Part shown: one piece after another, positions 3,316-22,166 of the stretch
Numbering within the stretch: position 1 is the stretch's first letter
Layout: each line of letters opens with the position of its first letter
IMG/VR virus record: IMGVR_UViG_3300042296_000918
Coordinates: 1-22,166 of that record
Length of the DNA: 22,166 nt
Direction: 5' to 3' (one strand)
Origin: a virus
Notes under the pieces: model-generated
Told to the model about the DNA's origin: nothing
The model's database searches: none
The model's input: only the letters and a program-made list of their open reading frames with translations
Made by a program: the position numbers and the translations under genes

Positions 3316-3322
3316 ACACTCT

Positions 3323-3353
3323 GGCTTGCCGTGCTATGGTAGTACGGCAAGCC
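3323..3353 (+). other. Strong intercistronic hairpin after the ATPase gene
   Basis: GGCTTGCCGTGCTA (3323-3336) pairs with TAGTACGGCAAGCC (3340-3353), giving 14 pairs with one G-T pair around a TGG triloop. It begins 7 nt after the ATPase stop. No T-run follows (CACTAATG), so it is a poor intrinsic terminator. An RNA-stability or processing element is more likely. Its core (3331-3345) is the exact reverse complement of GTACTACCATAGCAC from repeat copy 1. Confidence 0.7.
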
Positions 3354-3389
3354 CACTAATGAAATAACAACAAACAAACAACAGATAGT

Positions 3390-4274
3390 ATGAACAACGA
3401 TATGTACAACCTCACCTCCATCAACTCCGTCATCATGGTTCGCTTGATCACGGGCAAACCGAAACTCTCCGCTACGCTGGAGACAACCCACAAGCAGATC
3501 GCCTTCGCCAAAGGGGCTGACAAGGACTTCGTCCGTGCCCCATCCGCGAAGCTCTTCAAGACGAAGGACAACGCCATCGCAGAGATCAACAACACGATCA
3601 ACGGGATGGGCGTCTATCTCAAGAAGAAGGGTATGTCTGTGCCAGACTTTGAAGGCACGACCTACCAGCAAGCGACTAACGCTGACGAGATCCAGCAGGA
3701 GTTCGATGCTCGCCGCGACAAGATCGATGCGCTCCTCAAGGAAGTGTATGACAACTACCAGTCATTCGTTAACGAAGGGCACAAGCACATCAACGGATTC
3801 CGTGACGAAGTGCAATGGCCCACAGCCGACGAGTTCATCAGCGGCTACAAGTTTGAACTCAAGTGGTTGGGTCAACCCCAATCCATCGAAGGTTCCATCC
3901 TGTCTGCCGTCTCTGATGAGACTGCCGCCAGAGTCCGTGCCAGTAGCGAGAAGGCTGTGTCACAGATGTTGCTTGAGGCACACGGAGAGTGCATCGAGAA
4001 TGCCATCAACGAGATGGGCAAGACTATCGAGGCACTCACGAAAGGCAGTCGCCTTCATGGTTCCCGATTCACCCATCTGGAATCCTGCGTCAACGACCTG
4101 CGCCAGAAGAACTGGCTCAAGCTTCCCGAACTTGATCTGGTTATCGATGCACTCAAGCCCTGCATCGTCGAGGCAGATACACTACCCGAAAGCTACCAGC
4201 GTCTGGAGCATGCGAAGAAACTCGAAGTCGCCAAACGCACAGCAGAAAAGACCTTGACTGATTTGGGTCTGTAA
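3390..4274 (+). CDS. DUF3150-like partner of the MoxR/VWA module
   Basis: A 294-aa protein with no catalytic motif I can see. It is mostly helical and charged. Tentative landmarks are a central aromatic patch (QWPTADEFISGYKFELKWLG, about 146-165) and a helical C-terminal half (ASSEKAVSQMLLEAHGECIENAINEMGKTI). Position, length and the central tryptophan-containing segment resemble the DUF3150 proteins that often sit between a MoxR ATPase and a VWA protein in phages. This was judged by eye and is uncertain. It would be the third subunit or adaptor of the module. The start at 3390 follows a G-poor A/C leader; ATG at 3402 is an alternative. The stop is 8 nt before another strong hairpin. Confidence 0.6.
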   Translation: MNNDMYNLTSINSVIMVRLITGKPKLSATLETTHKQIAFAKGADKDFVRAPSAKLFKTKDNAIAEINNTINGMGVYLKKKGMSVPDFEGTTYQQATNADEIQQEFDARRDKIDALLKEVYDNYQSFVNEGHKHINGFRDEVQWPTADEFISGYKFELKWLGQPQSIEGSILSAVSDETAARVRASSEKAVSQMLLEAHGECIENAINEMGKTIEALTKGSRLHGSRFTHLESCVNDLRQKNWLKLPELDLVIDALKPCIVEADTLPESYQRLEHAKKLEVAKRTAEKTLTDLGL

Positions 4275-6842: not shown

Positions 6843-9800
6843 TTACTCCTCTACGAACATGTAGCGTGGATAGTTATCCAGTTGATCGAGCAGGACTTGT
6901 GCTCTCTCTAATCCGTACTCTTTCTGGACTAGACCTTGAAGGAATGCCTTGTTGATATCTGGACGATCCATGATGTTGCTGAACAAGAGAGCGGCACGAC
7001 GCTTGCTGATACCACCACGCTCAACCATGTTGGTGAAGATCTGCTCCTTCGACATTCCCAGACCCTCGAAGCCTCGCGAGATCTGGATTAGATCTTGATT
7101 GAGCAACTTGCGGTTCTTGACTTCGTCGTCATACAGCTCGCGGATCGTATCCTCATTGACGGGACGCTCTCCATATAGGGCGTACTTCTCTTTAATAACC
7201 CGATCAAATTGTTCCTTCTTCTCTTTGAGATAGCGGCTATATTGTTTGTTCAGATCTATCTCATGGATACGAGCAGGATATACGCCACTCAACATTACTC
7301 CCAATGGACTATCGTCGAACTCTTTGTAGTCCCCACCTGTAGCCTCATAGGCTTTAATAGCGTCAGATAGAATCCGTGGGGAGTAGGCTTTGTTCATCAG
7401 ATAGCCTGTTGCTTTTGTCAGTACTCCACCAACCCCATCGATATCCTTCTCCCAAATAGGTTCTCCAGTCGTGGAGTTCTTGTTGTTTTTGAGATCGGAA
7501 TACGCCCCCGCGAAGATCTGATCTTCGAGATACTGGTTGAAGATCATTCCTTGAACGAACTGCGAAGCGGATTCTGCAAAGTTACCTCTGGAGATTTGCT
7601 CGAACGCTCGCATAGTTGGGTCTGCCAACATGCTGAATGGGTTGATGAAGGTAAGGTTCATCGACTTGAGGTTATCTCCCTTGCCGAAGTAATAGAAGGT
7701 GTTGCCCCTCAAGTACTCTGGAATCGAGTTCCTCAAAGCTTCGTCCTCATCGTCGCCAATGCCGGATACCAGAACCCGAAGTGCTGTTGGAAGAACACTA
7801 CTGAACACTCCCAACATCGTAGTCATAGACGCAAAGCGCATCTGTCCGCGACGTTTAATGTTCGGATTGGCATCCTTCATTTCCTTTCTAGCCAACTTAT
7901 AAGTATTGATTACGATCCGTGGGACTTCCGCTTTGAAGCGGAGGAACGGAGCAAACATCAATCCTAATCCAGACTTTGTAATTTCAGATACAACTGGTGG
8001 AGCCTGACTTGCGGATTGGGCAGTCATCAGAATCTTTTGCGCCGCCATCCGTTTAAGCTGGTACTCACTCATATTGGCAACGCTCCCTGTATTGGAAGAC
8101 TTCTGCGCTTCTTTCAAGTTGTTCAACTCATACTCGAAGTAGGCAATCTTGTAGATCGCGTCAGCGTGGGCGGCTAGACGGCTGGCTTTATCGACGACCA
8201 GTTCCAGAGCAGCCTTGCCTTTAGAGAGTTTTGATTTCTCCATCAAGTCATCAAGCTGTTTCATGATGCCAGTAGCTTCGACTTTTCCATTGAGCAGATC
8301 TCGAATAACATTCGATTGGATCTCATTTCCAATGACGTCCAAAGCGGTAAGCTCTGCGATGTAGCTGTCGATTCTATTCTGGTCTTTAAGCCCCTTCCAC
8401 GATTGCTCTGCCGCTACTTTGAGCATCTTATCTACGCGCATGAATCCTTGTGATGGGCCAAAGAACAGCATGTTCGATACGACGTTACGGAAGTAGAAGC
8501 CAACCGAACCCAATGTCTTTGCCGCCATCGCGTAGCCCGATGCCTTGTTCAGAACCTTCATAGTGTTGTCCACGACTCCGATTGCGCTATTCGTATTGCG
8601 GCGAATAGTGTTGGCATCGAATGACTTCTGGAATCCTTCGACCATTTCTTTAGGCCCGAACATTCCCAACAACGGATCGTGCTTCGATGTTGTTGAGGAA
8701 CGGAATGGAACGAACCCTTCGTATTTGGCAGGATCTTTGTAGTACTCTTCTGAAGTTACTAGAAATCCATTACGCTCTCCCAATGTGCGGACATTGTTGA
8801 GGAACGATTGGTTCGACGCCATCGTAGCTACTGTGACAAAAGTGCGGAGCAGGTTATTAGTACCCTCTTCAGAGTTCTTGTACTCGCCCAATATGTCACG
8901 TAGTTCTGACGGGATATCCTTCTTCTGCTTCAAGTTATCGAGCATAACCCGATAGCCTTCGCCTAATTTAGATCCACCGAATCCAGCATCGTTCTTCGTA
9001 GCGTAGCTTTCGATAAAGGCGGCGAGTGCTTGTTGTCCGTAAGACTCTCCATTGCTGGAGCGTTTGTTGATAAGCTCGTCTTCAGCCTGTTTTTTAGCCT
9101 GTGCTGGAAGCATTCCATCGAGTCGAAGGCGACGGGTCTCCTGTTTGACAAACTCTTTATCGAAGAACTCTATCGCTTTTTCGCGAGCTTTAGCATACAG
9201 CGGATCTTGTTTAACCCGTTCGGCGAACCCAACTTCGTTGAACATGCGGTATGCGCGGGTCATGTAGATTCCCAATTGGCTATCGATGTAGACTCCGAAC
9301 TCTTCTGTGAGTCCGTAATCCTTTTTGAGTCTCTTCGAGAGTGGGTCGATGAGCTTCTCACGGAGATCAACAATGTGCTTCGCAATCTCTGGAGCTTTAG
9401 AAGTAAGCTCCGTAAGTGCTGCATCTTTGCGCTTAACGATTAGATCACGCGCAGTAGTTCTAGCGGAAGCGAGTGCCTCATCACGGAGTCTGGCAGAATC
9501 GTAGATCGCCGCCGACCTCTGGTCATCTGTGAGTGATGCGTTACTCCTGATGTTGATCAACCGTTCTGTGTGGTCGTCTTCGATTCTGTCATAGACAGAT
9601 TCGTCAAGCTCGACGCCTGTGCTACCCATCGCTTCAGCGATAAGCTCGTTAGGGGCATTGGCGATTGAGCCATATCGTTTCTCGACGAGCTTATCCAGAG
9701 TGCCTTTGTATCTTTCAACGAGGAGGGCAGCGGCTCGCGCAAAGGCATTTCTATTGTCGTCAAGTCTCTGGAAACGTGGATCGAGTTCGCCCATGAAGGC

Positions 9801-12800
9801 TCGCATGAATCCGCTTGCCGGAGCTTTGTAAGTGCCAGCTTCAAATAGCGGCATCTCCAGCATTTCAAGTAGCCCATCGAACTTGATCGACGAACCGCTG
9901 AACGCAGTGCCACTACCCAAACTGGTGAGCAAACGATCTGGATTGACCCCTAACTTGTTGAGTTGTTGAACATAATTATCTCTGATCTGTTTTTCTCTAG
10001 TTTCTTTTTCGGCATCAGAGAGTTCGAGTTTTGGTAGGCTTTTTAGCTTGCGTGAATACTCTTTGCGGAGAGGTTTGATTTCTTCGACAAGTCCTTTAAT
10101 TTTAACATGCTGCTCAATCATTTCGCCGAAAGCCCGAAGGCTTCTGCTGCCAGCAGTGAGATCAAATTTCATGTGCTTGCCCCTGCCACCATTCGACCAG
10201 AGTTTTTCGCCATATGACGGGTTATCACTCAAGTGGACAAGTTGCGTTACGGTGTGTATACCATATTCGTCTTGTGCCAGACGATCAATATCGGACGCAA
10301 GTTCCCCCTTATCCGTCCCATATTTTGCATGCAATTCGTCTACCATACTCGATATATCGTAGCTGGATAGCATCGCATCAAAACCTAATTTTGCCCACGC
10401 TTTGAAACCTTTATAAACCATGCCTGATTTTTTCTCATATTTCTCACCACGGGCAGCTGCTAGTGCTTTCGCTCTAGCGACTCTCTCAGTTTCCTCTCTA
10501 ATTTCAGTCGAAGATCCAGCCGCATAAGTAGAAACTTCTTTCGCGCCAATTAAATGGTTATTTGAAGTCAGTAGCAGCATTAACTCTATGCCGAAAGAAT
10601 CATTGGAAAATGTTTCACCAGAATTTTCTTCAGTTTCTATAGGTACTAAATCACCCACAGAAATATTTCCGTCGCTATAGGCTCCAAAAGATAAGGTATA
10701 GTTTTTACCACCTCTAGAAATTTTAGCGGATATTGAATCTGGACTGGAGGAAATAATAGTCAACCCATCTATCTGAGGGAGAACTTCTATGAGCTTGCCT
10801 ATGTTAAATTTTGGAGAAGATATATCGCCACTTTTAAGTACTGTTAGTGCATCTTCGTAGTCAGACATATCTGAAGATAGTATCACTTGTGGTCCACCAC
10901 CATAATCTGCCGCATCTACAATAACGGCTTTAGTAAACTCATCGACAATAAAATCAATAGAATCGACGTCAATATTATTAGCCGTAACATAAACTGAAAT
11001 ATAGGGGCGTAGACTTCTCCTGACAAATTCTTTAGCTGCTCTATAAATAACTTCATCTGGATCATCTGCTGGTCCAGTGAGGCTACCATAATCTTCAAAT
11101 TGAGCCTCACTAGTAGGGATTGCATAAAATTCTGGTGCTGCAAATTCGTCTAAGTCATATGTGCCAAACTCAAACTCATCATCAAATTCTGATTCAATAG
11201 ATTTTAAATAAGCACTAATATTTTTTCTAGATAATCTTTCTATTGTGTCGATTATATCACCAACTTGTACCTCGAATTTTTCTTGTTGGATTTCGGGTTC
11301 TTCTGTTTCCTCCGCTGTTTTTGGTCTACTTAATTTTTGAATCCTCTTGAAGTCTTCAAGATTGATCTGCGTGTACATCGCTTCAGCGAGATCTTCTCCA
11401 AACCCGTCCATTTCAATTTGATCCAGATTATCGAGTCCTGTCAGCACACGGAAGACTTCTGTAGAAGCTGTCGGGTTATTCGGATCGAACTTCAATACGG
11501 ACGGGCCCATGCGGTAGCCCATCTTGAGTGCCCGCATTTCTGTAAGCATACGAGTGAGGGCGTTATCAATCATTGGATTTCCTGTTCTCGTTGAAGTCAT
11601 TCGGCGGAAGACCCCACCGATATAGCGGAGCATGATCTTGAACAAAGACGGGTTCGTCCTTAAAAACGCTGCGTTCTCTTCAGTAGTATGACCAGTTGTT
11701 ACCCGTTGCAGGTGTGCGCGGAGATGCTCCTCGACCAGTCTGCGTTTTTCCTTCAGCGCATCCTGTTCGTTTTCGGAACGAACCAAAGCTTTGGAAACTT
11801 TGCGGTCTTCTTCATTCTGGTAATAGCTGTCAGCAACTGCATCGAATTCAGACTGATTAAACGAATTAACGATTTCGTCGATAGCAGATTGTGGGAGCGA
11901 GTTGTAAGAGGCTACGTGTCCCAACTCTTCGATCATTACACTTTCCACCAGCATGTTAGTGGTGAGATCATCCATACCATCGACAAAAGCCATAAGGCGT
12001 CCCATATCGATCTCGATTAGATCACCAGTAGCAGACGCTATGAAACGTCGTCCTTCCCCGATTGCTGCAATCTCTTTAGGAGTGAGATATTTAATACGAA
12101 CTTCAAACGGAACGATAGACCTGATCAATGCCTGAAGATTGCGAGCCCTTTTAAGTTGGTCAGCATTAGTTTCAGTATCTGATTTCGGAACGTTCTCTTC
12201 CGTAATCTTCTGCTGTTGCTGGACTAGCTCGTTGTTAGCAGCATCGATTGCTTCCTGTCTCGCAGCAGTCACAGCTTGTTCTGCTGTTTCTGGAGTTGCA
12301 ACTTGTGTGACCCTACTCTTAACCGATTCAGGGAGAGCGTCGCGCACATCCGCAGCTCTGTTCAGGATATCGGAAGCGTCTTCCGAAACTGAAGACAACA
12401 GGCTGGCAGAAGTATTACGTTCAGAACCCATCGCTGATCGGCTGAGTTCAATGATGTCCTTGAGGGCTTCTGTGTAAGCGTCCTTTTCTTTAGCAGTTAC
12501 TCTGCGGAACATGCTAACGAGTGCGTCAACGATCCGTCCGAAGAATCCACGCTGACCCTTTTGGGGCTCAACAGATTTTACGAGCGACTGGAACTTCTTC
12601 GAGAGGAGGAAGCTCGCTACAAACTCATCGATGTTGGCGAGACCATCCATGAGGGATGGATCAGTAATGCCATTCAGATCCGCTTGTTTGCGGACGAGTT
12701 CCATCAGTCCGTTCAAACGAGTTACTGCTGTTCTCTGTGCTTCGTTAAGCAGTTCTTTTGGCTTGTTAAGCGTGTCAGAAACAAACGCGTGGACATATTC

Positions 12801-15800
12801 TTCGAGCATCACGTTCGCAAGACCCCGTCCGTTGTGGCCATTAAGATTGAGGAACACGCTATGTGATCCGTCAGTAAGGCGATTGTACTCACCAGCAATG
12901 GATAGATCTGCTTCGCCTATTTCAAATCTAATTGTCTTGATAAAGGCTTCGTCTTCCAGAAGTAGTTCTGCCGCAAGTTTGTGCGACTTGTTTTTGGAAC
13001 TCTTCGCAATGTTCTTGAGGGCAGTGATTACAGATTCGGGATCGCCAGATACAAGACCCATCGTTTCAACATCAGCTGTGTTAACTTGTTTAGCGACGGT
13101 TGATTGCGCCTGAGTAATGTGCGAACGAGACATCCGTTTGCGGATGGACTTATCAATGGCTTTGATAAAATCCTTTGCGTGTCCTACAGGAACATCACGA
13201 CCCAATGAGCGACTAATTTCTGATTGGACAGCAGAAACAAATTCTGCGTCTTCAGTTGGGTTTTCGGTCGCGTTAGCTCGCGACGAAAGACGCATGAGCG
13301 TAAGTGCTGACCTCAACTCATATCCAGAAGCGAACTCACCGTCACGAAGACTCCGTTCAAAAGAAAGAATTCCGTCGTTATTGTAATTTCCTTTAGCAAT
13401 CCAGTTTGCCAGTGTGCCGAAGGCATCCGCTGTCGTCATGCTAGTGACGCGAGTAACTTGTGTCGTAGATGGGTTCTTATAAACCGACTGGAACAACAAG
13501 TCATTGAGGGCGTCCCGCAAATCTGGATTCTCATCGATTGCGTTAAGGGCATTAAACTCTGCCCCCTTCAAGATCCGCGAGACCTCAGAGGCAGACATTC
13601 TATCCGAACCAGAAATCGAAGGTTCGCCGATGTAATTAGCATCTTTCGAGATGTCATCAAAAGCAACTTGATCCATGATAGTCGGGTCCATCGAAGTAGT
13701 CGCCTTGACCTTCTCTTCAATTTCTCGCGTCTTCTGTTGGTCGGCGTAGCGTCCTTTGATTGTGTCTGCCAACTGATCAAGCGTAGGCATCGTGTTTCCC
13801 TCGAAACGTCCATTGTTTAGAACTTCCGAATCGAGGAATTTGAGCATGACTTTATCAGGACTTTTCCTGATCTCTTGTGCACTCGTATCAATGAATGGTG
13901 CGAGCCGTTCTGCGATTGTCGTCTTTTGTTCTGGACGAAGACGATTCATGAATAGCTTCACAGCTCCCTTTTGTTTAGCTGGATTGATCTTGTATCCAGT
14001 AGGAGTTTCAACAGCAATCTTAGAAGAGATCAAGGATGACCTAATCTCAAACAGGTTGGCAAAATTAATGTACTCCGTATGCAAAGCCTGAAGCGCAGTA
14101 TCAAAGAATCCCGATTCGAGATCCGTTCCGTTCCTCAGCTTGAGCGTCTTTTTAATCTTGCTCGCTGCTGCAATACGCATACCGTTAATAACGCCTGATA
14201 CACGTGCGCCTTCCTGAACTTCAGGCATTGTTGCGTTTAAGATAAACTGATTGAAGTTACTCAGCATTTCTCCAACACTTGTAGCCATCGATCCGATATT
14301 GGTAATCTTACCAGTTTGATCAATCACAGGGGCTCCAGAAGGAATGACTCGTTCTGCGTTTACGTCGTCTAAGAATAGGGTAGCGAGATTGCCCGCCTCA
14401 AACAAAGATGTGTAATCAGGTTCACTGGTTGTCGAACGCTCAATAGGAGCGGTCATTGAAACAAGACCAGCTTTGCCATCAGGGCGTGGGCCCAATACAT
14501 CAACGACGCGCCTGTTGCGGATAACGAAAGACGGGTTAATATTCTCAGCAAAGCCGCGAGGAACTTTGACTGGAACGCCGTCACGGATCATTTCCGAAAT
14601 AAGAACTGGATCATTGTTAAATACTCCGTTTCCATCAGCGTCGAGTGCTCCCTTAATTGGTTTTGATTCTACTCTAGTACCAGATATGGGATCAAAATAA
14701 GTTATCTTACGCCCACTAGAATATTCGCTGCCATTTGCAGGAACAGTTGGTTTAGTAACGGGGAAGTTCTTGTAAACAAGATTGGCGAGATCATTAGACC
14801 TATTGATGTAATAAGACTCCTGACCAGTGGCTTTCTTTGAAATGTTTCTGGCGGGCATTCCAAATCGAGCCTTCGACTGGAACGAGATCGGGAATCCAAC
14901 TCTGAGTACGCGATTAAAGGCAGAAAGTTCTGCTTCTTTAATTGGTTCTTCTCCTGCGAATTGGGCTATAGAACCCTCGACCATGACATTATTGTCAGGT
15001 GCAGATGGTAGTATGGCTTTAGGGGTGCGAGTCGGACTTGCAGCATGTTCACTAATTTCGGATTGGACAACGTCTGTGAAATCAAGTTCCAGTTGTTCCA
15101 TTATTTGTTTTGATCTACCGAAATCAAGAGCACTGAACGGAACCATAAGAGGCTCTTTAGCCGCATCACTACTCCTGATGTACATTCCAAAATCCATTTG
15201 GCCCGTCTCATCAACTTCCTCAGGGCGAATGACAGAGATCAATTCCTCAACAGCTTCTGGTGTTACGCCAGAAAGACCTTCGACAATAGACTCTGGAGTT
15301 GGTTCTTTTGGTCTAATCGCATATGTGACTGGTGCTCCAGTCAACGGGAACGGAAGTTCAAGTTGTCCAGTAGGTGTTTTTTCAGCAGGTGCGCCTTCAG
15401 TCAAAGACAACTCAAGTTGTTCAGCAGTTGGTGCTCCTTCAGCGGGTGCTTCTCCAGTAAACGGAAGTTCAAGTTGTTGAACTGCTTGTCCTCCAGTCAA
15501 CGGAAGTTCGAGCTGTTCTGGTGCTTGTGCCCCTTCTATAACAGCAGGTTCAGCAGGAGCCGCTTCTGCTGGAAGGTTGAGCATCTGGCGTTTGCGTAGA
15601 GCCTCTGCCATTGCTTGCTGGCGGCGGACAGGACCAGTAAGTAGTGTGCCAACGATCTCAGCTGTGAGGGGACTACCCGATTCATTGAGTTTGCTCGTCA
15701 CATTTTTGATCGCCTCAAACTCCAGATTGCGGGCAGCTGTATTACGGACATCACGATTCACGGATCCGGTTACAGATTGAATCGCAGGAACTCCCGCGCC

Positions 15801-18221
15801 CATTACTCCGCCGATGACAAAAGCGTGGAAGGTTTGATTGAGCCGTTCCAGCATTGAAGTGTTCTCGTTCAATGTAGCATCTTGAACGAAGCTGTTTACG
15901 AATTGGTCGAGTGCTTCTTCAGTACCTTCATCAAATGCTTCTTTTGAGATATTCTTTCCGATACTGGCATAACCGTATTTCTTAAAGGTATCTTTAAGAG
16001 ATGTCTTGATTACGTCATTAAATACTTTATTTGGGATGTTGTCCGCTGAATTAGACAGACGGCTAAAGATAGTTTTCATCTCTCGATAAGAGAGACCTCT
16101 AGTGAGCGCAGTTTCAAGACCACCTTTACCGAAACCAGAGAAGGCAGAAGTAATCAAGCCTGTCACAATGCCGCTTGTAATAGCTCCACCTAATGCGCGT
16201 TCGTGAGCTTCTTCGCGCGTAAGGTTAGGATCTTTCTGGAGTTGATTGAACATCGCCCCGTAAGAAGCTCCCATAGAACGGTTAGCCGCTGGTATGAAAG
16301 ATGTCGCAGTGATGTTGAGCCTATTAGCAAGTTGCCCGCTATAGCCATTGATCGCTGCCATCGCGCCATTAACGCCGCCGTCTTTGACAGACTGTTTGAT
16401 AAGACCTTCAGCAACTAGTCTTTTACCAGCAGCTTCGATAGATTCTCCAGCTAATGGCTTGAACACATTACTAACAAGTCCTTTCGCGATACCTTTAACA
16501 GTAAGGCGGGCTCCTTGTTTTGCTGCAAGATATCCAGCTCCACCAATACCAGCAACTGGTGAGGTAAGTGCTGCTAGAATAGTACTAGCGGTCATATCGA
16601 CCAGCATAGGTGAAAGTGACTCTGCAACTTCTTGAGTAACGCCCATATCGACGCCAAACAAATTGGCGAGTTCACGCCTATCTGAAGTCTGTTGGGCGAC
16701 GTTAGACAGATAATCTTGTGCGAATTCTACATCTAATATTGCTGGCAAAGCAGCGGCAAGTTGCCCGAAACCATCGATGATGGACATGCCAACTCCTTTT
16801 GCCCGTTGGGCGAACTCGCTGTAGTTATCAGGATTCGACAAAAAGGTTTCCAGAGTTTGTCTATCCTTTTGTCCAGCAGCTCTAGCTTTCTGGAGTTCAT
16901 TCTGCCACTCATCACCAACATCTGTACGGGATAGAAGATCACTGATCTCAGGAAATTGTTTATCGAGGAACTGTTGGCGTTGTCCCTCCATTTGTTTTTT
17001 GATTGTGTCAGAAATATCTGTTCTAGCCGCAAGTGCTTGATCAAATTTTTCTTTGTTCGCCATCAACGCTGGAGAGGCGACTGGAAGTCCAATACCATAA
17101 TTGCGGATATTCTTCCCAATTTCTTCTGCTCCGTCGTGGAATTGGAAGTACCCTTTATTAGAAGCCGTACGCAGACCGATTTCATTCATCGCCTGTTGGA
17201 CTTCACCAACTGTGAAGGCTTCGCTTTCTCGAAGGGCTCCACTTGTATTAAGTTTTCTAGCGATGGATTCCGCAGTAGAAGAAAATTCAGACTGCGCGAT
17301 TGCGTCAGACTTCTTCTGGAACGCCTCTTTCGCATCGATCTCTTTACCTTTGCCCATTACTCTGCCAGCAAAATTGACAATAGTCTGTCCAGCTGCGTCG
17401 AACATCTCTCCAGCTACATCGCCAAAATCATACTCAGTGCGAGCGAGCCTACGCGCATATCCATCAACGCTTGACTTAACATCGTCGTCTTCTTTTGCGA
17501 GAGTCTCAATCATCGAAGCGGCTTCGCCAATCCGCTTCAATTTATAATTCGGGACAGTATAGCCTTCCTGAGTTTTTAATTCTTGCTGTGCCCAATAGGC
17601 GTCCGCAAGACCAACTCCAGCATTTTTGGACTGCTTGATTGCGTCCTTCAGTGGAAGTTTAGTTGCAAGATCACTGGCGATAATTTGTGTTTTGCCATCT
17701 TCACCCGTTACTTTTGCAAATGGGATTTCATTATTGCGGATTTTTGATCTGAGTACATCGTCGTAACTTCTAGACAATGCTTCTTCAGCAGCTACTCGAT
17801 ACTCTTCTCCAGAGGCTTTAAAAGATTCTACTGCATCTGGATTGTCCGCAAGCGTTTGTTTGAATGCGCGATATTTAGTTACCGCTTCCCAATCTGGTGA
17901 TGAAGTGGGGAGAGTATTTTCAGCGTCTTTAAGTTGTTCATCAATTGAGACAGGCTTTGTCTGAAACAGAGCTTGTTTCGCTAGTTCATCTTCTGGATCA
18001 ATTTGTCCGGTTTTCTTAACTGACTCATATAGACCCTCCCTAATTTCATTCTCTACAGTCTCGTCATATGTTCCGTTGTCTAGATTAGTTGAACGGAGAT
18101 AGTCCGCATATTCCTTACGGCTCTCGACTGGATCTGCGATTTGATTACCCTCTGACCATTGTGAATAGGGGAGGAGTTCTTGTTGGGGTTTCTCACTCAG
18201 GAGAAAGTCAAACTGTGACAT
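6843..18221 (-). CDS. 3792-aa giant polyvalent/internal virion-type protein
   Basis: One uninterrupted frame takes up half the window. ATG at 18221 follows aatacacat, as at 198. The architecture fits giant phage polyvalent proteins (modules named by Iyer and Aravind), which are packaged and thought to enter the host. Visible parts, by approximate residue: charged helical N-terminus (1-520); hydrophobic segments near 538-561 and 798-814; a linker with four QLELxF/L motifs (903-958) and a fifth at 1043; a metallopeptidase-like region with EEYVH near 1808; a second with EELGH near 2099; and a low-G+C insert at about 2295-2574. Next comes a conserved module with FKAWAKLGFDA and KFDLTAGSRS (about 2600-2760). 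Long coiled coils follow, then a C-terminal LPD38-like region with hydrophobic stretches near 3228-3257 and 3458-3480. It ends the late operon at the terminator. Overall class is fairly sure; enzymatic activities are not shown. Confidence 0.88.
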   Translation of the reverse strand: MSQFDFLLSEKPQQELLPYSQWSEGNQIADPVESRKEYADYLRSTNLDNGTYDETVENEIREGLYESVKKTGQIDPEDELAKQALFQTKPVSIDEQLKDAENTLPTSSPDWEAVTKYRAFKQTLADNPDAVESFKASGEEYRVAAEEALSRSYDDVLRSKIRNNEIPFAKVTGEDGKTQIIASDLATKLPLKDAIKQSKNAGVGLADAYWAQQELKTQEGYTVPNYKLKRIGEAASMIETLAKEDDDVKSSVDGYARRLARTEYDFGDVAGEMFDAAGQTIVNFAGRVMGKGKEIDAKEAFQKKSDAIAQSEFSSTAESIARKLNTSGALRESEAFTVGEVQQAMNEIGLRTASNKGYFQFHDGAEEIGKNIRNYGIGLPVASPALMANKEKFDQALAARTDISDTIKKQMEGQRQQFLDKQFPEISDLLSRTDVGDEWQNELQKARAAGQKDRQTLETFLSNPDNYSEFAQRAKGVGMSIIDGFGQLAAALPAILDVEFAQDYLSNVAQQTSDRRELANLFGVDMGVTQEVAESLSPMLVDMTASTILAALTSPVAGIGGAGYLAAKQGARLTVKGIAKGLVSNVFKPLAGESIEAAGKRLVAEGLIKQSVKDGGVNGAMAAINGYSGQLANRLNITATSFIPAANRSMGASYGAMFNQLQKDPNLTREEAHERALGGAITSGIVTGLITSAFSGFGKGGLETALTRGLSYREMKTIFSRLSNSADNIPNKVFNDVIKTSLKDTFKKYGYASIGKNISKEAFDEGTEEALDQFVNSFVQDATLNENTSMLERLNQTFHAFVIGGVMGAGVPAIQSVTGSVNRDVRNTAARNLEFEAIKNVTSKLNESGSPLTAEIVGTLLTGPVRRQQAMAEALRKRQMLNLPAEAAPAEPAVIEGAQAPEQLELPLTGGQAVQQLELPFTGEAPAEGAPTAEQLELSLTEGAPAEKTPTGQLELPFPLTGAPVTYAIRPKEPTPESIVEGLSGVTPEAVEELISVIRPEEVDETGQMDFGMYIRSSDAAKEPLMVPFSALDFGRSKQIMEQLELDFTDVVQSEISEHAASPTRTPKAILPSAPDNNVMVEGSIAQFAGEEPIKEAELSAFNRVLRVGFPISFQSKARFGMPARNISKKATGQESYYINRSNDLANLVYKNFPVTKPTVPANGSEYSSGRKITYFDPISGTRVESKPIKGALDADGNGVFNNDPVLISEMIRDGVPVKVPRGFAENINPSFVIRNRRVVDVLGPRPDGKAGLVSMTAPIERSTTSEPDYTSLFEAGNLATLFLDDVNAERVIPSGAPVIDQTGKITNIGSMATSVGEMLSNFNQFILNATMPEVQEGARVSGVINGMRIAAASKIKKTLKLRNGTDLESGFFDTALQALHTEYINFANLFEIRSSLISSKIAVETPTGYKINPAKQKGAVKLFMNRLRPEQKTTIAERLAPFIDTSAQEIRKSPDKVMLKFLDSEVLNNGRFEGNTMPTLDQLADTIKGRYADQQKTREIEEKVKATTSMDPTIMDQVAFDDISKDANYIGEPSISGSDRMSASEVSRILKGAEFNALNAIDENPDLRDALNDLLFQSVYKNPSTTQVTRVTSMTTADAFGTLANWIAKGNYNNDGILSFERSLRDGEFASGYELRSALTLMRLSSRANATENPTEDAEFVSAVQSEISRSLGRDVPVGHAKDFIKAIDKSIRKRMSRSHITQAQSTVAKQVNTADVETMGLVSGDPESVITALKNIAKSSKNKSHKLAAELLLEDEAFIKTIRFEIGEADLSIAGEYNRLTDGSHSVFLNLNGHNGRGLANVMLEEYVHAFVSDTLNKPKELLNEAQRTAVTRLNGLMELVRKQADLNGITDPSLMDGLANIDEFVASFLLSKKFQSLVKSVEPQKGQRGFFGRIVDALVSMFRRVTAKEKDAYTEALKDIIELSRSAMGSERNTSASLLSSVSEDASDILNRAADVRDALPESVKSRVTQVATPETAEQAVTAARQEAIDAANNELVQQQQKITEENVPKSDTETNADQLKRARNLQALIRSIVPFEVRIKYLTPKEIAAIGEGRRFIASATGDLIEIDMGRLMAFVDGMDDLTTNMLVESVMIEELGHVASYNSLPQSAIDEIVNSFNQSEFDAVADSYYQNEEDRKVSKALVRSENEQDALKEKRRLVEEHLRAHLQRVTTGHTTEENAAFLRTNPSLFKIMLRYIGGVFRRMTSTRTGNPMIDNALTRMLTEMRALKMGYRMGPSVLKFDPNNPTASTEVFRVLTGLDNLDQIEMDGFGEDLAEAMYTQINLEDFKRIQKLSRPKTAEETEEPEIQQEKFEVQVGDIIDTIERLSRKNISAYLKSIESEFDDEFEFGTYDLDEFAAPEFYAIPTSEAQFEDYGSLTGPADDPDEVIYRAAKEFVRRSLRPYISVYVTANNIDVDSIDFIVDEFTKAVIVDAADYGGGPQVILSSDMSDYEDALTVLKSGDISSPKFNIGKLIEVLPQIDGLTIISSSPDSISAKISRGGKNYTLSFGAYSDGNISVGDLVPIETEENSGETFSNDSFGIELMLLLTSNNHLIGAKEVSTYAAGSSTEIREETERVARAKALAAARGEKYEKKSGMVYKGFKAWAKLGFDAMLSSYDISSMVDELHAKYGTDKGELASDIDRLAQDEYGIHTVTQLVHLSDNPSYGEKLWSNGGRGKHMKFDLTAGSRSLRAFGEMIEQHVKIKGLVEEIKPLRKEYSRKLKSLPKLELSDAEKETREKQIRDNYVQQLNKLGVNPDRLLTSLGSGTAFSGSSIKFDGLLEMLEMPLFEAGTYKAPASGFMRAFMGELDPRFQRLDDNRNAFARAAALLVERYKGTLDKLVEKRYGSIANAPNELIAEAMGSTGVELDESVYDRIEDDHTERLINIRSNASLTDDQRSAAIYDSARLRDEALASARTTARDLIVKRKDAALTELTSKAPEIAKHIVDLREKLIDPLSKRLKKDYGLTEEFGVYIDSQLGIYMTRAYRMFNEVGFAERVKQDPLYAKAREKAIEFFDKEFVKQETRRLRLDGMLPAQAKKQAEDELINKRSSNGESYGQQALAAFIESYATKNDAGFGGSKLGEGYRVMLDNLKQKKDIPSELRDILGEYKNSEEGTNNLLRTFVTVATMASNQSFLNNVRTLGERNGFLVTSEEYYKDPAKYEGFVPFRSSTTSKHDPLLGMFGPKEMVEGFQKSFDANTIRRNTNSAIGVVDNTMKVLNKASGYAMAAKTLGSVGFYFRNVVSNMLFFGPSQGFMRVDKMLKVAAEQSWKGLKDQNRIDSYIAELTALDVIGNEIQSNVIRDLLNGKVEATGIMKQLDDLMEKSKLSKGKAALELVVDKASRLAAHADAIYKIAYFEYELNNLKEAQKSSNTGSVANMSEYQLKRMAAQKILMTAQSASQAPPVVSEITKSGLGLMFAPFLRFKAEVPRIVINTYKLARKEMKDANPNIKRRGQMRFASMTTMLGVFSSVLPTALRVLVSGIGDDEDEALRNSIPEYLRGNTFYYFGKGDNLKSMNLTFINPFSMLADPTMRAFEQISRGNFAESASQFVQGMIFNQYLEDQIFAGAYSDLKNNKNSTTGEPIWEKDIDGVGGVLTKATGYLMNKAYSPRILSDAIKAYEATGGDYKEFDDSPLGVMLSGVYPARIHEIDLNKQYSRYLKEKKEQFDRVIKEKYALYGERPVNEDTIRELYDDEVKNRKLLNQDLIQISRGFEGLGMSKEQIFTNMVERGGISKRRAALLFSNIMDRPDINKAFLQGLVQKEYGLERAQVLLDQLDNYPRYMFVEE
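10501..11340. other. A+T-rich island inside the giant gene
   Basis: A hand count gives about 37% G+C over these 840 bases, with some 60-base lines at 28%. Sampled lines elsewhere in the same gene are 45-52%. The frame stays open throughout. It encodes about residues 2295-2574, including an acidic stretch (ESEFDDEFEFGTYDLDEF) and a domain with VIVDAADYGGGPQVILSS and NYTLSFGAYSDGNISVGDL. The change at the left border is gradual. Confidence 0.7.
15348..15515 (-). repeat. Degenerate QLELxF/L repeats in giant-protein linker
   Basis: Four imperfect coding repeats lie at 15498-15515, 15459-15476, 15402-15419 and 15348-15365. They encode QLELPL, QLELPF, QLELSL and QLELPF, at about residues 903, 916, 935 and 953. 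They are separated by Pro/Ala/Gly/Thr-rich spacers. A fifth motif, QLELDF, is at 15078-15095 (residue 1043). The conserved unit is the peptide rather than the spacer length. Confidence 0.8.
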
Positions 18222-18239
18222 ATGTGTATTAGTTAGTTG

Positions 18240-19187
18240 TTATTCTTCAAACAGAGATTTTGTTGACGTTGTAGTAGATGGGAAATATGTTTTGCGTTTA
18301 CGAGACAGTGCCCTAAATGCGTACTTATAGATTTCTTCAGGCGGGACTGCATCAAGTTGTTCAGGATTAGACTGCAATGATGGGTTAAGATCAAGCATCA
18401 TTTCCTTCAATTGGATTACTTGAATTGGATTAAATTGCGGAGTCGCCCCAACTTTTTCTGGAGCAGTTCCAGATTTGATCGCAGCAATAAATGCGTCGTC
18501 GCCCAATTCTTTTGGAGCCATCGAGCGGAGAGCGGATTCATGTCCTTTAAGGATATCAAGATCAATTTTGCGAAGTTGTGTTTGTTGCTCCGCCTGAAGT
18601 TTTTGGAAGGCGGCATTTTTGGAAAGCTCTTCTTCCTTTTTCTTTTCTGTGCCGATAGCTGTGGCAGAGTCAAAGAATTGCTTTGCAGATCCAGAATCGA
18701 CGTTACCGCCGAACAATGCCTTAACTGCTTCCGGTTGCCCCAATTGTGTGAGGTTCGCCGCAAGAGCATTTCGTTGTGATTCCTGTTGGTCCTTAACAGT
18801 AATCGCAGAGGAAGCAGCGTTGAAGATATTGTTGATCGCAGGATTGGCAAGTGTGGCCGCACCAAATTCTGTTCGGGCTTTCTCAAGCTCTGTAACCCTC
18901 GTCACAGGATCTTTAGTCTGATCGTTCAGGATTCCCGTTATGCGTTCGGAGATCTTAGGATAAAGGTTCTCAGCCTCGATTTGCTGACGAGTCTCGCGTT
19001 TAGCTGCCTCTAATTGAAGTCTTGTTTTTTCAAATTCCAATTCTTGGATTCGGTTTCTTGAGTCTTTATTGACCAATGATTTCATGGTCAAAAAACGCTG
19101 ATAGTCACTGCCGACTGGAACGCTTCCAGAATAAAAATTACCGCCACGCATCGGGGCGATATCAGATTCATATGAAAATTCAGCCAT
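18240..19187 (-). CDS. 315-aa coiled-coil probable virion/internal protein
   Basis: A 315-aa protein with an N-terminal Gly/Ser-containing segment (MAEFSYESDIAPMRGGNFYSGS). Long charged helices follow, rich in Q, E, K and A (RIQELEFEKTRLQLEAAKRE near 46-65, and KKKEEELSKNAAFQKLQAEQ near 187-206). The C-terminus is KSLFEE. No enzyme motif is visible. It lies 18 nt upstream of the giant gene and 15 nt downstream of the Pro/Thr-rich gene, so the three are one transcription unit. A structural or internal-ejection role beside the giant protein is the natural inference. No named family is recognised. The start at 19187 has no SD-like sequence. Confidence 0.75.
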   Translation of the reverse strand: MAEFSYESDIAPMRGGNFYSGSVPVGSDYQRFLTMKSLVNKDSRNRIQELEFEKTRLQLEAAKRETRQQIEAENLYPKISERITGILNDQTKDPVTRVTELEKARTEFGAATLANPAINNIFNAASSAITVKDQQESQRNALAANLTQLGQPEAVKALFGGNVDSGSAKQFFDSATAIGTEKKKEEELSKNAAFQKLQAEQQTQLRKIDLDILKGHESALRSMAPKELGDDAFIAAIKSGTAPEKVGATPQFNPIQVIQLKEMMLDLNPSLQSNPEQLDAVPPEEIYKYAFRALSRKRKTYFPSTTTSTKSLFEE

Positions 19188-19202
19188 GGTGATTCTTTAA
19201 AA

Positions 19203-19778
19203 TTATTGATTGATTTCGCGACGCCTCTCTTGCGCGGCATTAAACAGCAATCTTTTTGTAATATCATATTGCCGCTGTTCCGTACTGGCTGGAGAAATTC
19301 TCCGTGAATTGGGATTAACTGGAGCATCGGGACGCCCACCAAAAGCCTTATTAGCTATATTTCCAGCTAATATCGTGTCTGCACGTTCGCCGCGTTTAAT
19401 AGCGGAAAAATTTGCTCGATCCCTTTGCTTTTTCTCTTCCTCTGCTTTTCTCTCAGCTTCTCTTTTAGCATCTTCTTCTCTCTTCTTCGCATCCGACTCC
19501 ATTTGTGGGGCAGTTGTTTGGAGTTTACTACGCTCTGAAGCAGCCGCTTGATCAAAATACGATCCAGTAGGCAGCGGTGGAAACGGCTTAAATTCAGTGG
19601 CTGGAGCAGGTAAAGCTGGTGCAGTCGCGGATGGTGTAGTCGCGGATGGTGTAGTCGCGGATGGTGTAGGTGTGCCGCGCTGTGATGGTTTTACAGGCAG
19701 TGTCCTCTTTAAGAAATCAGCTAATAATGGGTCAAGTGTAGTGTCTTGATTGTAGCTTGTTGGTGTGCCGTTAGCCAT
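19203..19778 (-). CDS. 191-aa Pro/Thr-rich charged probable virion protein
   Basis: The N-terminal third is Pro/Thr/Ser/Ala-rich and contains three exact PSATT-type units. The middle (about 95-127) is a highly charged single-helix segment (DAKKREEDAKREAERKAEEE). The C-terminal third is basic and less repetitive, ending FNAAQERRREINQ. The mixture of extended linker and charged helix is typical of phage scaffold, tail or internal proteins, but none is recognised. It is the first gene of the three-gene unit with the coiled-coil and giant proteins, and it has its own promoter immediately upstream. The start at 19778 is fixed by the promoter position (-10 at 19785-19790). Confidence 0.72.
   Translation of the reverse strand: MANGTPTSYNQDTTLDPLLADFLKRTLPVKPSQRGTPTPSATTPSATTPSATAPALPAPATEFKPFPPLPTGSYFDQAAASERSKLQTTAPQMESDAKKREEDAKREAERKAEEEKKQRDRANFSAIKRGERADTILAGNIANKAFGGRPDAPVNPNSRRISPASTEQRQYDITKRLLFNAAQERRREINQ
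19624..19668 (-). repeat. Three exact 15-bp tandem repeats (PSATT units)
   Basis: The + strand reads GTCGCGGATGGTGTA three times in a row (19624-19638, 19639-19653, 19654-19668). On the coding strand this gives repeated Ser-Ala-Thr-(Thr/Ala)-Pro in the linker of the 191-aa protein. Perfect identity at the DNA level suggests recent slippage expansion. Confidence 0.95.
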
Positions 19779-19784
19779 GACGCA

Positions 19785-19813
19785 ACTCTAAATTAAATCG
19801 AAACAAGTGTCAA
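19785..19813 (-). promoter_or_regulatory. Promoter for the 191-aa/315-aa/giant gene unit
   Basis: On the - strand, TTGACA (19813-19808), 17-nt spacer, TAGAGT (19790-19785). The ATG is only 6 nt beyond the -10, at 19778. Transcription would start at or next to the start codon, giving a leaderless mRNA. The -35 is perfect; the -10 matches four of six bases. Confidence 0.55.
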
Positions 19814-19820
19814 CACACTA

Positions 19821-20114
19821 TCACCACAAGTATTTACAAGCCCAATGGCGAGCGGTCGTTTTGTCGTTTGCCGTCTGGCAATTGTGGCGCGAACGGAAAT
19901 TGGCCCGCCTTTTGGGGTCTTTGTGTTGGGTGAAATCTTCGTAGCCTCTCGCGCCAAACGAAACCTTTTTGACTTTATCACCTTCCTTACCCAAAACCAC
20001 GAACTTCTTTGGCGAGCCAGCAGGTGCTTTCTTCGGCTTATTGAATCCGGCGTACTTCTCGCCCATATACTGAATCTGTCCTGAAGGTAGCCGCTTAAAT
20101 CGTGAGGTAGCCAT
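19821..20114 (-). CDS. DUF5754-like small phage protein
   Basis: A 97-aa basic protein starting MATSRFKRLPSG. The C-terminal core reads SPKKFVVLGKEGDKVKKVSF, then GARGYEDFTQHKD, PKRRANFRSRHNC and KTTARHWACKYLW. I recognise this as the DUF5754-type core common in phages, with invariant-looking R-x-R-H-N-C and W-A-C-x-x-W. Function unknown; the two Cys and His could bind metal. I chose the ATG at 20114, not the longer frame from 20150, because the family core fits and because the upstream ATG lies inside a promoter -35. It sits between terminase and the virion-type genes with its own promoter, so it may be regulated separately. Confidence 0.78.
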   Translation of the reverse strand: MATSRFKRLPSGQIQYMGEKYAGFNKPKKAPAGSPKKFVVLGKEGDKVKKVSFGARGYEDFTQHKDPKRRANFRSRHNCQTANDKTTARHWACKYLW

Positions 20115-20122
20115 ACAGCTGG

Positions 20123-20150
20123 ATTTTACTCTACCCGCCAAAAATGTCAA
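20123..20150 (-). promoter_or_regulatory. Promoter for the DUF5754-like gene
   Basis: On the - strand, TTGACA (20150-20145), 16-nt spacer, TAAAAT (20128-20123): a perfect -35 and a five-of-six -10. The start codon at 20114 is 8 nt downstream of the -10, so the transcript would have a leader of at most one or two bases. Confidence 0.7.
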
Positions 20151-20225
20151 TATTTGAACGGACAGAAATCAAATAAGTCAAGAATTTTTCATACAAGATA
20201 TATAAAAGTGTTTTCTAGCTTTGTC

Positions 20226-20250
20226 ATTCATTAAGCCCCGCTTAATGAAT
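20226..20250. other. A+T-rich perfect hairpin in terminase/DUF5754 gap
   Basis: ATTCATTAAGC (20226-20236) and GCTTAATGAAT (20240-20250) form 11 perfect pairs around CCC. No T-run follows on either strand. The surrounding gap (20115-20310) is markedly A+T-rich. It could be a back-up terminator, an operator or an RNA-processing site. Confidence 0.5.
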
Positions 20251-20284
20251 TCCATCATTATAAAAGACTTTTTACTTTGCCCAA

Positions 20285-20312
20285 ATGCAAAATCAAACGG
20301 TCGTTTGGATTT
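20285..20312 (-). terminator. Probable terminator after the large terminase gene
   Basis: Directly at the terminase stop, the - strand folds as TAAATC-C-AAACG / CGTTT-GATTTT with an AC loop and one bulged base. The 3' arm ends in TTTT followed by GCATTT. This is a modest stem with a short U-rich tail, so termination may be partial. The core CAAACGGTCGTTTG (20294-20307) is also an operator-like near-palindrome. Confidence 0.45.
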
Positions 20313-22089
20313 AGTCGATTGAGTCCACCGTCAAAGCTTGCCTGAGCCCCGAAATCGTAACCTGTCTCCTGAATCCTGTACTCGCATCATCGTTCGGTGG
20401 CTCGACTGCCACTAGACCTAACCGCTGACGGGCGCAGTCCAGCGCAAGAAAGGCTGCGTCCGCTAAGTCAGGCGACCTCCCGAAACGGGATTTGAACTCT
20501 GGCTTCGATTCGATCTTCACTTTGAGGGAACCGCCTTTGACCAGATCGTAGTTTCGGGCGCAGATCTCCTGTGCCAGATCAGCAGAGATTCCAAACACCT
20601 GTTTAGTTCGCATCAGTTCCTTGCCCACGAACCAGAGTTCGGATACACGGTTCACGTAAAGTTCTTCGCCCGTCAGCTTGCTGTTTGCGCTGACCCGCTT
20701 GTCAGAGGGCTTGCCGCCGAAACTCACACGGAAGATCGATGGCGACCACTCGCCAGCCAGAACGTCACAGAACGGTGCGCCAGCACCAGTGGCATCGACC
20801 GCCACATTCTCTGGCAGGATGCCCTTGCGGACGCAGTGGTCCTTGATCTGGCGCACGATCTGGTACGTACGTGGAACCGCCTTATTAGTGGCGTCGTCGT
20901 TCAAGTGGATCGCCTCGTCGAATTCCAGTACGTAGTGACCCCCCTTATTATATCCGACTTTGGCTGTGTAGAGGATCGTCCTGTCTCCGCCATTTGTGAA
21001 CGCCGGATCTAGTCCCGCCACTAATAGCGGCTTCGCGGCCCACTCGACTTTGCTCATCGACTTGCTGGACGCGATCTCCGACTCGCTGTAGATTCCCTGT
21101 GTTTCGTCGCTGTCAAAGAACACAGCCCGTACCATCCGCATGTAGCCTCTGGACTCCTGCCCTAAAAGGGCTCTGTCTTCTGCCAGCTTTTCCTCAGTAG
21201 GGAGCCATGGATAGAGTGTCTCGCCAGCTAGAATGTTAGGCGAGCGTTCGCCGTCCAGCCTCAAATAATGGCCATTCCACTTCGTGTCCCAATTGTCCGC
21301 CGTATTAGTATCTACAGACTCCCAACCACTTTTCGGCTCCGCCCATACGCCAAACGCGTCGAAACGACTGTTGGGGTTGGACATCCCGATCATCTGGAGG
21401 AACGGGTTTTTCGACAAGTTTGTCAGACCAGCATGGAGAATAGCCTCCGACAATTCGGAAAGCTCGTCCGCAATTACGATGACCCGCTTCTGCTTGATAC
21501 CGATGAACTTGCCCACAGCTTCGCGAGTCTTGCTCTTTTCAGCAGCGATCAGCATTAGGCCCGCCCGTTCGATCAGATCCCCGTTCTCGTTGACGTAGGC
21601 TACGCTTCCGATTGAATCCCGAATCTTGCACGGTGCTTCCTGAATCACAGTCAGGAGCGAGATGACAGAACCCCAAATACGGCGTCTGGCTTCTCGTAGT
21701 GTAGTACTGGTCATCATGACCAGCGTGTCCTGTGGCTCCGACAACCAGTTGATGATGCCCCACGCCGCCATCGTGTGGGACTTACCGGAACTGGCAGATC
21801 CGCCAATTGCCAGATATTTATTACGTATCGCTGCGCGGATCATTTCCTCCGCCCACGGATGCCGGACCATCAGAGGTTCTGGCATTTCGGGATTATTCCA
21901 GAGTTCGTCGCAACATCTCCAGAAATAAAATTCCTTCGCTTTTGCGTTCGTGTGGTTCGCAAACCCGTACAAAAGTGCTGTAATTAAGTTAGTGGGTGGG
22001 ATCAAAAGACCGCCGACATCCATCTTCTTTGTTGTCGGATCGATCCGTGGCTCCAACAATTTTTTACTTTTTTCTGCTGTAGTACTCAT
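20311..22089 (-). CDS. terL: Phage terminase large subunit
   Basis: The 592-aa DNA-packaging motor. Its N-terminal ATPase has Walker A GGSASSGKS (residues 96-104) and Walker B VIVIADE (203-209, with D208 and E209). A coupling-like segment (IGMSNPN) lies near 234-240. The C-terminal RNase H-fold nuclease has its acidic residues in GLDPAF (D361), AVDATGAG (D432) and RSPDLADA (D541 and D544). In tailed phages this protein cuts concatemeric DNA and pumps it into the prohead through the portal. The start at 22089 overlaps the end of the preceding frame by 26 nt, which points to translational coupling; M23 is a weaker alternative. Length and motif order are normal, with no sign of damage. No small terminase is recognisable in the window, although the partial upstream gene could be it. 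Confidence 0.95.
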   Translation of the reverse strand: MSTTAEKSKKLLEPRIDPTTKKMDVGGLLIPPTNLITALLYGFANHTNAKAKEFYFWRCCDELWNNPEMPEPLMVRHPWAEEMIRAAIRNKYLAIGGSASSGKSHTMAAWGIINWLSEPQDTLVMMTSTTLREARRRIWGSVISLLTVIQEAPCKIRDSIGSVAYVNENGDLIERAGLMLIAAEKSKTREAVGKFIGIKQKRVIVIADELSELSEAILHAGLTNLSKNPFLQMIGMSNPNSRFDAFGVWAEPKSGWESVDTNTADNWDTKWNGHYLRLDGERSPNILAGETLYPWLPTEEKLAEDRALLGQESRGYMRMVRAVFFDSDETQGIYSESEIASSKSMSKVEWAAKPLLVAGLDPAFTNGGDRTILYTAKVGYNKGGHYVLEFDEAIHLNDDATNKAVPRTYQIVRQIKDHCVRKGILPENVAVDATGAGAPFCDVLAGEWSPSIFRVSFGGKPSDKRVSANSKLTGEELYVNRVSELWFVGKELMRTKQVFGISADLAQEICARNYDLVKGGSLKVKIESKPEFKSRFGRSPDLADAAFLALDCARQRLGLVAVEPPNDDASTGFRRQVTISGLRQALTVDSID

Positions 22090-22166
22090 TTTTTACTTGC
22101 GCGAGCATCTTACGTGCTTTAAACAAATCGTCAACATCCAATGAACGACGACTCAGAAACTGAAAA
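22064..22166 (-). CDS. 3' end of an unidentified gene, overlapping terL
   Basis: On the - strand a frame enters at the window edge and runs 33 codons to TAA at 22066-22064. It reads FQFLSRRSLDVDDLFKARKM and ends QVKNEYYSRKK, a charged, helical, normal-looking C-terminus. It overlaps the terminase start by 26 nt in another frame. By position it could be a small terminase or a short head-completion-type protein. The visible part is too short to decide. Confidence 0.55.
   Translation of the reverse strand, partial: FQFLSRRSLDVDDLFKARKMLAQVKNEYYSRKK

Follow-up and report, generated by a model that had tools for sequence, protein, structure and literature searches.

Probable sigma-70-type promoters placed for leaderless or nearly leaderless mRNAs on the virion strand of an uncultured phage family

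Introduction

Work on leaderless initiation has mostly dealt with a handful of genes or with Thermus, Deinococcus and actinobacteria. The locus described here raises the question of whether a phage family can place the promoters of its virion-strand genes so close to the start codons that the mRNAs carry little or no leader. It lies in a 22,166-base IMG/VR virus record (the whole stretch analysed, hereafter the window), in which two consecutive minus-strand genes are each preceded by promoter-like boxes that end a few nucleotides before the ATG. A sequence-only reading of these boxes proposed a deliberate leaderless start, differing from long A/C-rich leaders on the opposite arm and possibly marking an early/late switch in initiation mode. 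Our preferred reading, to which we assign a probability of roughly 80%, is that sigma-70-type promoters give rise to mRNAs that are leaderless or have a leader of 1-2 nt for promoter-proximal genes of the virion strand, in a host that does not rely on Shine-Dalgarno (SD) sequences.

The locus and its two predicted promoters

The minus strand of the window encodes the terminase large subunit (20311-22089), assigned by a PHROG match (phrog_2), followed by a DUF5754 gene of 97 aa (PF19058/phrog_7595; 19821-20114), a 191-aa gene without a family match (19203-19778), a 315-aa gene (18240-19187; present in 9 of 13 clustered records) and the gene of a giant protein of 3,792 aa (6843-18221), which ends the minus-strand run. 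Homologues of the giant protein, about 3,600-4,300 aa long in relatives, occur in 13 of 13 clustered records, every one on the terminase strand; the protein matches nothing in PHROGs, and its best Pfam hit, Methyltransf_5, stays below the cut-off. On the plus strand ten small to medium genes were called, including those of an ATPase (phrog_1297) and of a DUF2201 metallopeptidase/VWA protein.

Promoter 1 (20123-20150, minus strand; 11/12 matches) precedes the DUF5754 gene and consists of TTGACA (20150-20145), a spacer of 16 nt and TAAAAT (20128-20123), which ends 8 nt before the ATG at 20114. Promoter 2 (19785-19813, minus strand; 10/12 matches) starts 7 nt past the DUF5754 stop codon and leads the 191-aa gene, with TTGACA (19813-19808), a spacer of 17 nt and TAGAGT (19790-19785), which ends 6 nt before the ATG at 19778. 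These boxes, spacings and start codons agree with the sequence-only reading at every coordinate and gap. The 315-aa gene downstream has no promoter of this type. The distance from the -10 box to +1 is usually 6-7 nt, so gaps of 6-8 nt between the -10 box and the start codon would give a leader of 0-2 nt; for promoter 1, the transcript is predicted to start at about 20114-20117. The proposed sequence of events is that host RNA polymerase with a sigma-70-type factor would begin transcription on the start codon or 1-2 nt ahead of it, and that ribosomes of a host not dependent on SD sequences would take the 5'-terminal AUG or GUG directly, without SD pairing. Genes further downstream would be read by coupling, their starts lying within 10 nt of the preceding stop codon in most far relatives, or from a promoter copy of their own.

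Between the terminase gene and promoter 1 lies a long, imperfect dyad (20204-20272, minus strand) made of an A-tract, a hairpin and a T-tract, with a predicted fold of -18.6 kcal/mol (z = -3.2; -1.7 for a longer stretch). Folded elements with z <= -2.0 stand at this position in 29 of 34 loci; in relatives the stems, some of them very long, are unrelated in sequence. Rfam gave no match within window positions 20000-20400. The dyad may be a two-way terminator, and a terminator, a packaging signal and a replication signal are all candidate roles for it in the window and in relatives. If, as is probable, it ends the terminase transcript, the next genes need a promoter of their own.

As to chance, promoter-like sites are as frequent in shuffled DNA as in the window (7 in 15000-22166 against 7.4 +/- 2.8; at a threshold of at least 10/12, 4 in the whole window against about 2.6), so the boxes alone prove nothing and it is their position that is informative. 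Specifically, a site of at least 10/12 whose -10 box lies 6-8 nt ahead of the start codon precedes 2 of the 15 window genes, whereas among 4,000 dinucleotide shuffles of the upstream stretches of these 15 genes one such gene was seen in 22 and two in none. The recurrence of this unusual spacing at two consecutive genes is thus beyond chance.

Conservation in relatives

Conservation was assessed upstream of the DUF5754 gene. Two scans, with 80 loci taken from each out of 430 and 491 confirmed relatives, located the gene in 122 loci (window copies included), which yielded 68 distinct upstream stretches. Four loci (L024, L054, L121 and L123) whose match started past residue 1 were left out, and in all four a TTGAC box with a TAnnnT-like or GATAAT box is visible by eye near the start; 64 stretches remained, one of them that of the window. 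A promoter site, defined as at least 9/12 matches with a gap of 4-10 nt between the -10 box and the start, is present in 59 of these 64 distinct sequences, the other five falling short, and in 22 of the 26 divergent ones, those with less than 70% identity. Shuffled sequences gave 0.96 and 0.26 sites for the two sets, and control positions slid by 8, 16, 24 and 32 nt gave none. The gap is 6 nt in 26 of the 59 sites, 7 in 13, 8 in 15, 5 in four and 10 in one; 55 have TTGACA as their -35 box, the spacer is 17 nt in 45, 16 in 10 and 18 in four, and nearly all -10 boxes fit TAnnnT. The sigma-70-type pattern (TTGACA, 16-18 nt, a TATAAT-like box) is kept while the flanks diverge widely, which indicates that the boxes are under selection, and in the window, as in 59 of the 64 sequences overall, the -10 box lies such that +1 would fall at or beside the start codon, the placement expected for a leaderless mRNA in the broad sense (leader of about 0-8 nt).

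This placement is meaningful only if the start codon is correct. The DUF5754 start is GTG in 47 of the 64 sequences and ATG in 17. Among 65 distinct, ungapped genes of 97 codons, variation at codon positions 1, 2 and 3 is 0.168, 0.095 and 0.573 in codons 2-16 and 0.124, 0.070 and 0.514 in codons 17-97. The first codons thus vary like the rest of the gene, mainly at third positions, indicating that they are translated and that the assigned start is right. Many relatives have His or Leu at codon 17, where the window protein has its next Met. In-frame stops within 48 nt upstream of the start, found in 49 of 64 sequences, exclude a far upstream start there. Together with the shuffles, the conservation in 59 of 64 sequences and this codon test give the leaderless or nearly leaderless start strong support at the level of sequence.

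The arrangement behind promoter 2 was followed at 66 distinct junctions 3' of the DUF5754 gene. In near relatives (DUF5754 identity of at least 83%), a promoter with a gap of 5-9 nt precedes the next gene at 17 of 19 junctions, and it is kept although the protein encoded by that gene differs between many of them. Far relatives mostly show another layout, with the next gene starting within 10 nt of the DUF5754 stop at 38 of 47 junctions; a promoter occurs at two of the 47 and neither arrangement at seven.

Bias toward the terminase strand

The spacing recurs before other genes of what the sequence-only reading took to be the late side. In a scan of 12 relatives of 28-65 kb plus the window (sites with at least 5/6 matches in the -35 box and 9/12 in all), the terminase strand carries 35 sites with a gap of 6-8 nt, against 2 on the opposite strand, which encodes the replication proteins (helicase, exonuclease, DNA polymerase, primase and resolvase); the Fisher p of 2e-8 serves only as a guide, since the sites are related by descent. 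Other classes of site split about evenly between the terminase strand and the other, with 17 and 21 at gaps of 9-50 nt, 42 and 42 at 51-300 nt, and 78 and 84 with no gene within 300 nt; at 0-5 nt the counts are 7 and 2. The 37 sites at gaps of 6-8 nt, one or more of which are likely false (inside a polymerase gene in G003), correspond to about 12 per nt, against 0.34 per nt for the 84 sites at gaps of 51-300 nt. In ten further records, some of them closely related to the 12 used first, the same criterion gave a weaker bias (12 against 2; Fisher p = 0.02), the 14 sites being spread over six records and G004, G014, G015 and G017 having no site at gaps of 6-8 nt. These distributions bear indirectly on the label 'late': the sites do stand on the strand of the terminase and the giant protein, opposite the replication genes, and late timing of expression would fit this layout.

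In gene families found in six or more records, sites of at least 10/12 within 120 nt of the start nearly all have gaps of 6-10 nt (the exceptions, 47 and 76 nt), and none precedes a replication-strand family. Families led in this way include DUF5754, the gene following it, a 740-aa protein and a protein of about 318 aa, among others, mostly without assigned functions. The 740-aa protein has such a site in 9 of 11 records (at least 10/12; gap 7-10 nt) and the ~318-aa protein in 6 of 11 (at least 9/12). For the 740-aa protein, searches of PDB and PHROG gave no match and Pfam none above the cut-off; its predicted fold (mean pLDDT 42.6) was unusable.

A second flavour of site was noticed in one relative (L154, about 2671-3609, 9830-10207 and 11772-12050), where a shared spacer resembling CCCTTaaTCCTGTA precedes several structural-strand genes, perhaps reflecting a different regulator or sigma preference.

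Ribosome recognition and the presumed host

SD strings were counted before 545 genes of at least 100 aa in the 12 relatives and the window. They are found in place before 5.2% of genes and at a control place before 6.6% (terminase strand, 6.5% and 7.7%; opposite strand, 5.4% and 5.4%), compared with 41 and 12% in E. coli, 38 and 7% in lambda, 39 and 12% in phiYS40 and 54 and 9% in P23-45. SD sequences are thus absent on both strands, initiation looks SD-independent everywhere, and the contrast between the arms lies in the leader. The upstream regions of these 13 records are G-poor. The last 30 nt before ten genes of the window's plus-strand arm are 72% A+C, but across relatives the difference between the strands is small (60% and 58%), so that the A/C-rich leaders claimed for that arm hold for the window and hardly beyond it. 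A similar division applies to the proposed switch in initiation mode: what is left of it is a contrast between putatively leaderless and leadered genes, not one between leaderless and SD-led genes, both arms being SD-independent. With this change, an early/late switch in the uncultured family is plausible.

A terminase profile search found four contigs in three metagenome-assembled genomes, called Opitutae (two contigs), Blastopirellula and Altibacter. The Opitutae bin is itself SD-less (8.8% against 8.8%), which fits an SD-less phage family, with a binning error being possible; in 372 genomes of its order there was no further full terminase match and two weak partial ones. Full -35/-10 sites at the leaderless spacing form no clear peak in three partial genomes of Opitutae, the presumed host group, and comparison of the relatives' tRNA with the bin's order gave partial matches only, in 16 of 177 genomes.

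Bacterial initiator tRNAs are marked by an unpaired 1:72 position and by an anticodon stem with three G:C pairs, C1/A72 being the classical mismatch. Three relatives carry a CAT-anticodon tRNA gene with an unpaired 1:72 (L024, 8262-8336; L054, 8264-8338; L177, 9014-9090), the mismatch being A1/C72 twice and C1/A72 once, and none of the three has the three G:C pairs. In L024 and L054 the tRNA gene is flanked by the DUF5754 gene and the next gene of the leaderless type, the TTGACA of the latter directly following the CCA end. Such a tRNA is absent from the window and from most records scanned. Leaderless mRNAs are reported to be favoured when initiator tRNA is more abundant (PMC9031893). It is conceivable, if rather improbable, that these elements form a late programme of 5'-end initiation, in which virion-strand transcripts would begin as leaderless mRNAs in an SD-independent host and some members would bring an initiator-like tRNA of their own, the tRNA supply and the leaderless messages increasing jointly and out-competing host mRNAs.

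A point against the leaderless reading is the frequency of GUG as the DUF5754 start (47 of 64). Initiation at a leaderless GUG is described as poor in E. coli, with Mycobacterium smegmatis and some other actinobacteria using it more efficiently (PMC9031893); a host tolerant of such starts is therefore to be expected.

Relation to known systems

The closest known case is phiYS40, a phage of Thermus thermophilus whose middle and late mRNAs are reported to be mostly leaderless, so that non-early genes are likewise read from such mRNAs, and whose infected cells are reported to show more IF2 and less IF3 (PMC3594737). In our scan, phiYS40 gives a -10 peak at a gap of 6 nt and 8 full sites at gaps of 6-8 nt in 100 kb; the gap-6 peak is absent from lambda, P23-45 and E. 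coli. Unlike the uncultured family, phiYS40 keeps SD sequences before many of its genes, whereas the opposite-strand genes of the family show no excess over control. Its host is Thermus; for the window terminase, no cultured phage gave a match. In Deinococcus-Thermus, a TAnnnT motif placed a few bp ahead of the coding region has been shown experimentally to give leaderless mRNA, with a -35 box raising expression (PMC12340547); that report concerns cellular genes and stresses the -10 box, whereas the phage family nearly always has a near-consensus TTGACA. The cI mRNA of lambda is leaderless as well (PMC9031893), a phage gene similarly read from a 5'-terminal start codon, but it is a single repressor gene in an SD-using phage, as opposed to a set of structural-strand genes.

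Another phage that resembles the family is the elemovirus vB_FspP_elemoA_1-5B of Flavobacterium (MT497074), whose genome of about 60 kb includes an 11-kb structural gene and a DUF5754 relative and shows no SD usage. It differs in that 50 kb of it hold a single gap 6-8 site, whose -35 box is imperfect, and its DUF5754 gene adjoins groEL, which lies on the opposite strand. Since phiYS40 is positive and the SD-less elemoA nearly negative, the scan detects a known leaderless phage, and SD loss alone is not enough to produce the signal. The 11-kb elemovirus gene is similar in size to the giant gene of the window (6843-18221). According to the gene tables of other cultured DUF5754 phages, the gene begins 8 nt past the end of the previous gene in CRP-2 and abuts or overlaps it in CRP-6, CRP-603 and HTVC008M. 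No report of leaderless late genes in such phages was found, in a search mainly of titles and abstracts that covered few of the subscription journals. The arrangement is real, conserved and new in this phage family, and of a kind known from phiYS40.

Alternative explanations and implications

That the boxes are chance matches in AT-rich upstream DNA, over-read in one contig, would agree with a site count no higher than in shuffles, but their position, strand bias and above all conservation upstream of the DUF5754 gene refute this account, to which we attach next to no weight. It is also unlikely that the promoters are true but the RNA start is shifted, so that translation, by ordinary SD-less initiation, would use a short leader (5-10 nt) or a start codon inside the gene. 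Gaps of 5-10 nt do not oblige transcript start and start codon to coincide, and the family is SD-less everywhere; yet gaps of 6-8 nt point to a leader of 0-2 nt, and an internal start is contradicted by the coding character of codons 2-16 and by a codon 17 that is often not Met. Similarly doubtful is the idea that TTGAC-N17-TAnnnT serves as the operator of a phage regulator or is recognised by an RNA polymerase that the phage encodes: a same-strand subset of sites shares spacer bases (e.g., CCCTTaaTCCTGTA) beyond a plain sigma-70 consensus, but the spacer of 16-18 nt, most commonly 17, and the TAnnnT boxes resemble sigma-70 promoters, and a comparison of 34 proteins, less than a whole genome, with PHROGs found no RNA polymerase family.

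The most serious alternative, which we hold at slightly less than even odds, is that the leaderless spacing has nothing to do with the time of expression and reflects the need for promoters in a compact strand behind a terminator. Both promoters in the window sit in tight gaps, the second almost directly behind a stop codon, and the general absence of SD sequences makes a switch in ribosome mode unnecessary. However, replication-strand families also have gaps of at least 30 nt (95 genes) and lack strong sites there. Compactness is compatible with sigma-70-type promoters yielding leaderless mRNAs in every respect except the 'late' part.

If the preferred reading of leaderless or 1-2 nt-leader mRNAs is right, an uncultured family with hundreds of members (430 terminase relatives confirmed), SD-less throughout, appears to use leaderless starts for genes of its virion strand. 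It would be a natural experiment with replicates on whether initiation directly at the start codon, GUG included, can carry the structural-strand genes of a phage, and it also allows one to ask whether phages tune initiation by gene class. Additionally, gene finders that rely on ribosome-binding sites may choose wrong starts in such phages.

Inserts in relatives

Two further observations concern coding genes of relatives. The terminase gene on an Opitutae-bin contig (L192, 4319-7117) contains an in-frame insert similar to Pfam Intein_splicing (E = 6.7e-8, slightly below the curated score), and the DNA polymerase gene of another relative (L153, 14212-16845) contains an endonuclease-like insert.
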